Below, piece by piece: positions 60,880-64,000 of a DNA stretch of 64,000 bases (positions are counted from its first letter, which is position 1; every line of letters starts with the position of its first letter). The notes below the pieces were generated by a model. It had not been told where the DNA came from, searched no databases, and was given only the letters and a program-made list of their open reading frames with translations. The DNA comes from Halovenus rubra (GTDB lineage Archaea > Halobacteriota > Halobacteria > Halobacteriales > Haloarculaceae), in the NCBI RefSeq assembly GCF_026586665.1, contig NZ_JAODIY010000001.1, positions 1 through 64,000 on the forward strand. Direction: 5' to 3'. Made by a program: the position numbers and the translations under genes.

Positions 60880-61908
60880 TTACTGCTGGAACAGCCCGCG
60901 ATACTGCGGCGGACCAGTGGCTGTCTCCTCGTCGAGTGTCGCAGCTGCTCGCAGACCAAAATATGGATCTCGAAGATGTTCACGACCCACGATAACGAGG
61001 TCGGCTCGGTCATTTGCGACGATTGCCTCGGCCTGTTCCGGTGTCGTGATGTTGCCGACCGTTCCGACCGAAATGTCGGCCTCGGTTTCTTCTTTGATTC
61101 GCTCGGCAAGTGGGAGCTGATAGTTTGGTCCCTGGTTTTCCGGAGACGAATTCGGGCTGATGCCGCCGCTGCTTACATCCACGAGGTCTGCGCCCAGCGC
61201 GGCCAACTGGTCGGTCAATCGCACAGACGCTTCGACAGTCCAAGACGGTTCGGAGAGCCAGTCAGTCGCAGAGATGCGGACGAACACTGGTATATCATCG
61301 GGGACGCGTTCACACACCGCTGCGGTCACGTCGCGGGTAAGCCGGGTTCGTCCTTCGAAACCGCCGCCATAGTCGTCTTCGCGGGTGTTTGTTACCGGCG
61401 AAAGAAATTCGTGGAGTAGGTAGCCATGGGCAGCATGCACTTCGACGATACGGAAGCCAGCTTCAACTGCTCGCTTGGCGGCCTGACCAAACGCCTCGAT
61501 TATCTCGTCAATACCCTCGCTGTCAAGCCGTTCGATATCCGGCTTCGGTCGGTCGTACGGAAACGAGTCGCGTGTCGGTCCGACGACTGTCCAGCCATCA
61601 TCTTCCTCAGCCGGGATGGTTGCGTGGCCGTCACGAGGACGGACCGTCGAACCCTTCCAGCCGGCATGGGCCAACTGGATTGCTGGGACTGACCCCTGTG
61701 ACTCGATGAACTGTGTGACCTGCTTGAGCGAAGCAATATGTTCGTCGTCCCAGATACCCAAGTCTTCCGGGGAGATACGGCCCCGCTCCTCTACAGCGGT
61801 AGCTTCAGCCATGACGATACCTGCACCACCGACTGCCCGCGAGCCGAGATGGACCTGATGCCAGTCAGTTGCGTGACCATCCTGTTTGTCACAGGAGTAC
61901 TGACACAA
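60880..61908 (-). pseudogene. Old Yellow Enzyme-family NADH:flavin oxidoreductase, 5' truncated
   Basis: The frame encodes ~342 residues of a YqjM-like OYE: the first recognisable residues are CQYSCDKQDG, which in intact homologues follow a conserved ...PNRIxVSPM. Later motifs (AIQLAHAGWKGS, HAAHGYLLHEFLSPVTNTR, DLVDVSSGGISP, and VIVGREHLRDPYF) are complete through the stop. The first ~22-25 residues, which form barrel strand 1 and contact FMN, are absent; sequence upstream (TIAEL...) is unrelated. The gene is cut at the end of the neighbouring integrated element. Confidence 0.8.
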
Positions 61909-61920
61909 CTCGGCTATTGT
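61905..61920. other. probable integration junction
   Basis: Reading the OYE gene on the minus strand, homology stops at about 61905, at the codons for CQYSC, and the sequence beyond (61909-61969) is unrelated and AT-richer. The RHH and integrase genes begin at 61970. The junction therefore lies within a few bases of 61905. The att core should overlap the CQYSC codons; the other copy lies outside the window. Confidence 0.55.
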
Positions 61921-61969
61921 GTATAAACAGCGTAAACACTAAGGGGCCACCGTGAGACGTTTCGGGTAG

Positions 61970-62494
61970 ATGGCAGAGAAAACCACCGTCGCCTTTCGGA
62001 TTGATGAATCGGTCAAAGAGGAATGGGAAGACGCCGCCGAAGGCCCGGAGTATGACAGTCTTAGCCACTTGATACGGCTTTCTGTCCAACGGGAGATAAC
62101 AGACACAGGGACGGCCCCACGCACCGCAAAGGCCGACACAGGAACAGTAGAAGATAGTGAGGTACTGGATTCTCTCACTCGACTGGAAAGGACAGTCGAA
62201 GACATACAGGACGAAATGAAGGCCGTCAGTCGAGAAAGTCGTTCTGAGGAATTATACAATCTTGAACAGGTACTTCTTGAAGTTCTCCCATCCCACAAAA
62301 CTAATCTGGAAGATTTGGAAAATCCGATTGGTTCTGACATTGAAAGTGCTACTCCAGAAGAAATAGCGGCACGAATTGACGCCAATGAACAGGACGTTTC
62401 AGATGCGCTCAATCGCCTTTCAGATAACACGGCACAGGTAAAGGAATTAGGCACGGCGTTTGATGACCAAAACAGCTACTATAGGGCAGAATAG
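61970..62494 (+). CDS. ribbon-helix-helix-like protein upstream of the integrase
   Basis: 174 residues. The N-terminal ~55 residues (MAEKTTVAFRIDESVKEEWE then DAAEGPEYDSLSHLIRLSV) fit a CopG-like RHH DNA-binding fold. A Glu-rich coiled-coil follows (~70-105), then a winged-helix-like C-terminal segment (SATPEEIAARIDANEQDVSDALNRL). The stop shares 1 nt with the integrase start. Likely a regulator or recombination accessory factor; inference only. Confidence 0.7.
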   Translation: MAEKTTVAFRIDESVKEEWEDAAEGPEYDSLSHLIRLSVQREITDTGTAPRTAKADTGTVEDSEVLDSLTRLERTVEDIQDEMKAVSRESRSEELYNLEQVLLEVLPSHKTNLEDLENPIGSDIESATPEEIAARIDANEQDVSDALNRLSDNTAQVKELGTAFDDQNSYYRAE

Positions 62495-63507
62495 TGGACA
62501 GTAAGACAGTAATCACAGAGTTTCATAACCGACAGACAACAAAAAAAGCGGAGGGAACCGCCAACAGGTACACTCAGGACGTAAGAGACTGGACAGAGTG
62601 GTTAGAGAATCCCGGAGCTAAAGATTACGACCCTAACAGCCGTGACAGGGACGCTAAGACACTTTGGGACGCTACTACCCACGACGTTAGAACGTACCTC
62701 CGACAAATGCTAAACAACGGGGGATATGCTGGCGGAACAGTCTCGATGCGAGAATCTTCTATATCAATGTTCTATCAGGAAGCCTCTCGTATGGCTGAAG
62801 ACCCTTCTATGAGTATCCCTGAAACAGAGAACCCCGCAAAGGAGCTTGACCTTTCAGGATGGACGGCACTAAAGAACGGAACTAAGAAAGAACAAAATCT
62901 GAAAGAGGGTGTTCAATACCTTGAACCGGACGAAATAGACAGTTTAGCCGAAAACGTACCAAACCCCCGGCTACGTAATGAGCTAATTGTCCGGCTACTC
63001 TACCATACGGGATTACGCCGCACAGAACTAACAGAAACTCGCTTAGAAGACATTGACACAGACGAACGGGCAATCAAAGTCCGGGCAAACAAAACCCACC
63101 AGAACCGTACTGTCTACTACCAGTCCGAACTTGACACTCTCCTGAATCGGTGGCTCAATGTCAACCGTAAATCTCTGGCGACAGCTGGAAGCGATTACCT
63201 CTTTCCGACAACTCATTCAGAACAGATTGACCCTAACCGTATCACCCGACTCGTCAAAGAAGCCGCAGAACAGGCAGGATTACAGTCTACTGTTCACACA
63301 GACGCCGCAGGTAATGTCCGGGGAAAAGTGACGGCACACGTACTAAGGCACAGTTTCGCCGTCCAAAGTATCAAAAATGGAATGGATACCCGCCGATTAC
63401 AGAAACTAATGGGTCACTCGAAGATTGAAACCACAGAACGGTATCTTCAATTCGCCAATAATGACCTTCGGGAAGCCGCCCGGAGATACGGCCCCGGTTC
63501 AGAGTAG
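62494..63507 (+). CDS. tyrosine recombinase/integrase
   Basis: 337 residues from GTG 62494. N-terminal SAM-like core-binding domain (~8-120), then the catalytic domain with YHTGLRRTELTE (Arg I), VRANKTHQNR (Lys), AHVLRHSFAVQ (His-x-x-Arg), MGHSKIETTERYLQF (His/Gly and nucleophile Tyr). Complete and apparently functional. The overlap with the RHH gene implies coupled expression. It would catalyse insertion and excision of the surrounding element. Confidence 0.93.
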   Translation: MDSKTVITEFHNRQTTKKAEGTANRYTQDVRDWTEWLENPGAKDYDPNSRDRDAKTLWDATTHDVRTYLRQMLNNGGYAGGTVSMRESSISMFYQEASRMAEDPSMSIPETENPAKELDLSGWTALKNGTKKEQNLKEGVQYLEPDEIDSLAENVPNPRLRNELIVRLLYHTGLRRTELTETRLEDIDTDERAIKVRANKTHQNRTVYYQSELDTLLNRWLNVNRKSLATAGSDYLFPTTHSEQIDPNRITRLVKEAAEQAGLQSTVHTDAAGNVRGKVTAHVLRHSFAVQSIKNGMDTRRLQKLMGHSKIETTERYLQFANNDLREAARRYGPGSE

Positions 63508-63661
63508 TTCCCTTCCCTCACTCCGGGGGTAAACACCACGAGATACCCCTTCCACGTACTTCTTGGGAGAGGCGGCATTACGCACCGCAAGTGCCGCCAA
63601 AGAATTAATGTCGGTACTTTAAGACCTTAGAACTAAGTAGAAGTCCGCTAAATGATTCTCT

Positions 63662-63931
63662 GTGTCTGAAAGCACAATCGGAATCCCCGACACCGTCGCC
63701 ACAGAATCACTCTCCTACGCAGGAACTGATATGACCCTTCGAGAGATAGCCACCGACCTACAGGAAGCGCACAGGGAACTTGACGAATATCATAGCGGTT
63801 CGTTGGTCTTAGCACAGAACCTGAAGGAACTACGGATGAAAGCCGAACGGGACGGAAACCTACAACTCGCTAATACCACCAAAGAATTAGAAGAATCAGC
63901 TATGGCCGTGGTAGAACGTAGCAGAGAATAG
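63662..63931 (+). CDS. small hypothetical protein of the element
   Basis: 89 residues from GTG 63662, mostly helical and charged (LREIATDLQEAHRELDEYHS, LKELRMKAERDGNLQLANTT), with no membrane segment. Unrecognised. It lies 154 nt after the integrase; the gap contains only an AT-rich, stop-laden stretch with TTAAGACC-type promoter-like sequence near 63619. Confidence 0.55.
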   Translation: MSESTIGIPDTVATESLSYAGTDMTLREIATDLQEAHRELDEYHSGSLVLAQNLKELRMKAERDGNLQLANTTKELEESAMAVVERSRE

Positions 63932-64000
63932 CAACCGTCTCAGAATTTCCACAGACGCCACTCAGTAGCCCCTCATGACATTCTTTTTCGAGAGGATGGT

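Follow-up and report, generated by a model that had tools for sequence, protein, structure and literature searches.

The Old Yellow Enzyme (OYE) gene in the window, by which we mean the whole 64,000-nt stretch analysed here, raises the question of where its 5' end has gone. Window coordinates are those of contig C1 of a 3.57-Mb haloarchaeal draft genome with 48 contigs. The open frame spans 60880-61908 on the minus strand and opens abruptly at CQYSC. The part from C25 to the stop (60880-61905, minus strand) is the 3' fragment of a NamA/YqjM-like FMN enoate reductase: its closest PDB relatives are OYEs and NADPH dehydrogenases, and its Pfam alignment to Oxidored_FMN (4.6e-61) begins only at profile position 22. 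Against the NamA profile the fragment scored 322 bits, under the cut-off of 431. Homology stops at the CQ codons (61900-61905, minus strand). A sequence-only reading of this DNA had proposed that an integrated element cut the frame at the CQYSC codons and that the missing ~22-25 codons would lie past its right end. Both proposals held when we searched the whole genome, including the sequence beyond 64000, with a full-length OYE query. The displaced N-terminus was found on the same strand at C1:64858-64941 (minus), and the 24 missing codons (MSRLFTELPLCDMTAPNRLMVSPM) occupy contig 64870-64941, just beyond the window. We also looked for an intact upstream continuation of the gene, which would argue against an insertion; the 5' end is displaced and not continuous.

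The integrated element runs from 61900 to 64863 (plus strand; 61900-64000 within the window) and measures 2964 bp including one core. Its left boundary is the attL direct repeat CTGACACA at 61900-61907, of which 61900-61906 form a 7-bp core, and the second copy lies outside the window at contig 64864-64871. The short direct repeat that had been predicted is therefore present, although not with the suggested length of 12-25 bp: it comprises 8 bp, the core plus one base, and covers part of the M codon and the C and Q codons, not the whole of CQYSC. An automatic repeat search set at a minimum of 9 bp passes over it. Joining the flanks with one core gave a single open OYE frame that begins MSRLFTELPLCDMTAPNRLMVSPMCQYSCDKQ and runs to the stop. 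OYE is intact in three congeneric species (G001, G003 and G016), which have ATGTGTCAGTAC at this position and represent the empty site; the sequences that flank the element on both sides adjoin OYE in G001 and G003. The residues missing from the fragment are present in the homologues of other species. In another member of the Halobacteriaceae we encountered an OYE in two overlapping frames without this element (L128/L129, G194:C85:10747-11833), probably a frameshift.

As the window genome is a 48-contig draft, an assembly or contig-joining artefact might be suspected. We consider this next to impossible, given that the contig continues to 461 kb, that the joined frame is perfect and that the same junction structure occurs independently in Halobacterium salinarum DSM 3754 and in genome G171.

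Both ends of the element carry further signals. The left terminal motif GTATAAACAGCGTAAACACTAAG (61921-61943, plus strand) is inverted relative to GTGTTTACGCTGTATATAC at contig 64831-64849. Its AACAGCG starts 26 bp from the core start, and ACAGCGTAAACAC at 61927 has its complement at 64831-64843, which makes a terminal inverted repeat. The window contains one copy of the left motif with 0 expected. The GC content is 49% in the element and 56-57% in the flanks. We found no tRNA gene in the window or the neighbouring stretches, so a tRNA gene was ruled out as the target, and the earlier view of a protein-coding target was confirmed.

The first gene of the element (61970-62494, plus strand) encodes a 174-aa accessory protein with a putative RHH N-terminus, a coiled coil and a C-terminal winged helix. 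About 43 residues at its N-terminus are near-invariant in an alignment of nine members, a sequence pattern that suggests the RHH fold. The Pfam search of this protein gave no convincing RHH match, and an Arc-like repressor PHROG was matched with an E-value of 0.02 only. Overall confidence of the AlphaFold model is low, including the putative RHH part; the winged-helix part has a pLDDT of about 80. The GTG start of the second gene overlaps the stop of the first by one base. It encodes a tyrosine recombinase (integrase) of 337 aa (62494-63507, plus strand; Phage_integrase 6.7e-35 plus a SAM-like domain) with R175, K200, H282, R285, H308 and Y317, invariant in nine relatives, as the R-K-H-R-H-Y catalytic set. 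With this set, the flanking att direct repeats and the precise empty site the element has the sequence features of a tyrosine-recombinase integrative element; against the archaeal XerA profile (NF040815) the integrase scored 161 bits, under the curated cut-off of 220. A small protein of 89 aa follows (63662-63931, plus strand; phrog_16395, 4.5e-12), with relatives in four of the nine elements. Scans of the three gene-like ORFs in the window against Pfam, PHROGs and NCBIfam gave no replication or transfer gene and no virus, conjugation or casposon hallmark, the gene content of a cryptic integrated element (CIE).

The ORF listing gives an 80-aa ORF in the right part of the element as well. This part also holds a conserved pyrimidine-rich non-coding stretch (contig 64190-64330, L010:4190-4330; also L043:7025-7160 and L044:6637-6700) with a duplicated CCTGTAGTCCCCTTTCCTTTCC-like unit, possibly a cis-acting site, and the direct repeat CCCTCACTACGTTCGGTC lies inside the element at contig 64335-64415 (L010:4335-4415).

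To which sites do such elements go? We found eight related elements with integrases 57-98% identical, which makes nine with the window's. All sit in protein-coding genes with the 7-bp core in the same register: it starts 26 bp before a conserved AACARCG of the left motif, the same core stands at both ends and joining restores the frame. For one of them (L079) an earlier CAACAAC copy taken as the core gave a frameshifted join and was rejected in favour of the in-register copy, which restores the frame. In H. salinarum DSM 3754 (L043/L075) the same OYE codons are occupied by an element of 3244 bp with core CTGGCAC and a 98% identical integrase, and in G171, from a third family, by one of 4788 bp whose integrase is 64-65% identical. 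With elements at this position of the gene in two further haloarchaeal families, the OYE codons are a true attachment site and not a chance hit. The six further elements (integrases 57-64% identical to the window's) have different protein-coding targets. Two congeneric genomes share a PilB/VirB11-like ATPase gene (T2SSE match) interrupted at EANYLNPDVEVIAEI; the remaining targets are a menB-like gene, entered in its last codons so that the C-terminus is kept, a gene for a YCF48-like Tat protein, a pilin-like gene (labelled by eye) and an uncharacterised gene. The congener G001, whose OYE is intact, has a related element in an uncharacterised gene (L103, C1 about 1360600-1363700). Eight of the nine elements interrupt the 5' or middle part of the target gene.

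Among the order's 392 genomes searched, seven contain the left motif, once each, and these are exactly the seven with an integrase at least 57% identical. Since motif and integrase coincide, the group as delimited by sequence is well bounded and rare, occurring in about 2% of species. Searches by family added two members to those of the 392-genome motif search. Integrases of about 38-46% identity lack these end motifs. In the integrase tree the OYE-targeting enzymes form one clade (support 96/97) and the pilB enzymes another (99/96). Viral contigs contained no relatives of the element. In the plasmid and phage collections the best match was 39% identical (a Natrinema zhouii plasmid), with others at about 21-33% and no haloviral integrase among the phage matches listed, which rules out a virus or plasmid already in the searched collections. 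Downstream of the integrase, L076, L078 and L102 (the elements of G171, G355 and G470) encode a protein of 140-191 aa with an apparent HTH and HNH endonuclease; the HNH match of the L078 protein, the only one of the three that was scanned, is weak (0.0017).

Short direct repeats, inverted ends and a repeat that always copies the host gene would also suit the insertion of a DDE-type transposon or a casposon-like element that duplicated 8 bp of its target and carried the recombinase as a passenger. We regard this as very improbable. No DDE transposase or cas1 was recognised in the element's ORFs, and all nine elements have only the integrase and partner genes in common. Moreover, shared targets track the integrase tree, and three insertions hit the same codons in three families. 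Site-specific insertion of the 2964-bp element, with its own tyrosine recombinase and DNA-binding partner, into OYE codons 24-26 (M-C-Q) is very probably the correct reading. The sequence comparisons establish where the element ends on either side, that a direct repeat flanks it, that joining restores the frame, that the congeners have empty sites and that the same site is used in two other families.

For this site-specific insertion we propose the following mechanism. The circular form would carry the arms GTGTT-N7-AAC, which is what most members give when right end, core and left end are read as a circle. Such a layout resembles the core site of a tyrosine recombinase whose overlap is 7 bp; we infer the core length by comparison and the crossover region from this arrangement. 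The recombinase would swap strands across the 7-bp core against the matching 7 bp of the chromosome, leaving a core at both ends, and the putative RHH/winged-helix protein might act as an architectural or directionality factor by binding the terminal inverted repeats. The ATGTGYCAGTAY motif is present in nearly all surveyed OYE genes. SPMCQYS is conserved across haloarchaea, and therefore the same landing site would be available after transfer between genera.

The variable core base matches the host: TGT in the window's genus, TGC in most Halobacterium, and AAT or AAC for pilB. Elements with 98% identical integrases differ by one core base (CTGACAC and CTGGCAC), which a strict core-homology rule alone does not explain. 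Under strict homology the core of the circle must match the target in advance, so either it was adapted beforehand or host sequence ends up at both ends. Three integrases with 84-89% identity each have a target and a core unrelated to those of the other two (cores CAACAAC, GTACAGC and TCTCGAA). Because such close relatives use unrelated cores, and because the OYE and pilB cores follow the synonymous base of the host, we tentatively suggest that the recombinases could be retargetable: the host gene would supply the 7-bp core or serve as the model for its repair, the arms would stay fixed and a lineage would move between unrelated genes. We consider this possible, though rather doubtful.

What does the insertion do to OYE? 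The displaced 24 codons encode what we take, from the known OYE structure, to be the first β strand of the barrel and the SPM of the flavin motif. Insertion would inactivate the gene by removing this strand and part of the FMN-binding motif, and loss of function is expected from that structure; excision would restore OYE. In the remaining 341 codons we saw no decay: there is no stop, and pairwise dN/dS was 0.08-0.11 for the fragment against the congeners and 0.10-0.11 among the intact congeners, rough values as dS exceeded 1 in most pairs. The insertion thus looks recent or reversible. The open frame and the dN/dS values, together with an in-frame TTG directly before CQYSC in all three OYE cases, could alternatively mean that the truncated OYE is still functional and translated from a start codon within the end of the element. 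This is unlikely: the lost residues include the strand and the SPM, there is no ATG, the TTG is simply the element end GAGTT plus the first core base, and a recent insertion accounts for the absent decay.

Protein-coding integration targets in archaea and cryptic integrated elements of 2.6 kb have already been described (PMC8371274, PMC6563490). New here are the repeated OYE target in 5' codons, the disruption of most target genes and the variation of the core among close relatives, in every case in agreement with the host gene. In an incomplete literature search we found no paper on an OYE-targeted element. What the elements reuse as a landing site is a conserved protein-coding motif in place of the usual tRNA gene, and insertions that may be reversible interrupt a metabolic gene and perhaps pilus genes too. 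A review of archaeal recombinases notes that intragenic sites of this kind have not yet been tested for recombination (PMC8371274). The nine minimal haloarchaeal elements have mapped ends and a size that permits reconstruction as a two-gene test system, with which the recognition of a protein-coding site by an archaeal integrase could be addressed.

Among known systems the CIEs of Thaumarchaeota, such as NitUzo-E2 with 2.6 kb (PMC6563490), are similar in being tiny and in combining an integrase, a winged-helix protein and hypothetical genes with no recognised replication or virus hallmark. Their att repeats are also short, with 8 bp as the minimum (PMC8371274), and some of these CIEs lie in protein-coding genes. 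However, thaumarchaeal intragenic insertions are 3'-distal, whereas here all but one are in the 5' or middle part. The integrative element of about 10 kb in pilB2 of Halobacterium NRC-1 and 63-R2 (PMC10264941) is likewise haloarchaeal, lies in a PilB-kind protein-coding gene, has an 8-bp terminal direct repeat and is present or absent between sister strains. It is three times larger, and we liken it by description and not by integrase sequence; being absent from R1, it is a precedent for the loss of such an element (PMC10264941). The SNJ2 integrase (PMC8371274) is again a haloarchaeal tyrosine recombinase, encoded in one operon with two small helpers, one a coiled-coil and the other a MarR-like protein, a likeness by description and not by sequence. 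Its target is the 3' end of a tRNA gene and its repeat is 13 bp long; membership of the SNJ2 family is set there at 30% identity or more over 60% of the protein (PMC8371274). In the strand-biased circularizing integrative elements of Gammaproteobacteria (PMC10214605) a short 6 bp spacer between inverted arms also records host sequence; their two ends keep different spacers and other genes are encoded, whereas the ends of the OYE element are identical. In the bacterial dusA-specific genomic islands an integrase family is likewise dedicated to a conserved flavoenzyme gene, at its 5' end (PMC4482086). Those islands bring a substitute dusA 5' end and have 21-bp att repeats, whereas the OYE element has a 7-8 bp repeat and brings no such end: upstream of CQYSC its frame runs only about 11 codons to a TAG and contains no ATG. 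The nine elements are thus set apart as a group that interrupts genes at conserved internal codons without a substitute end and with varying cores.
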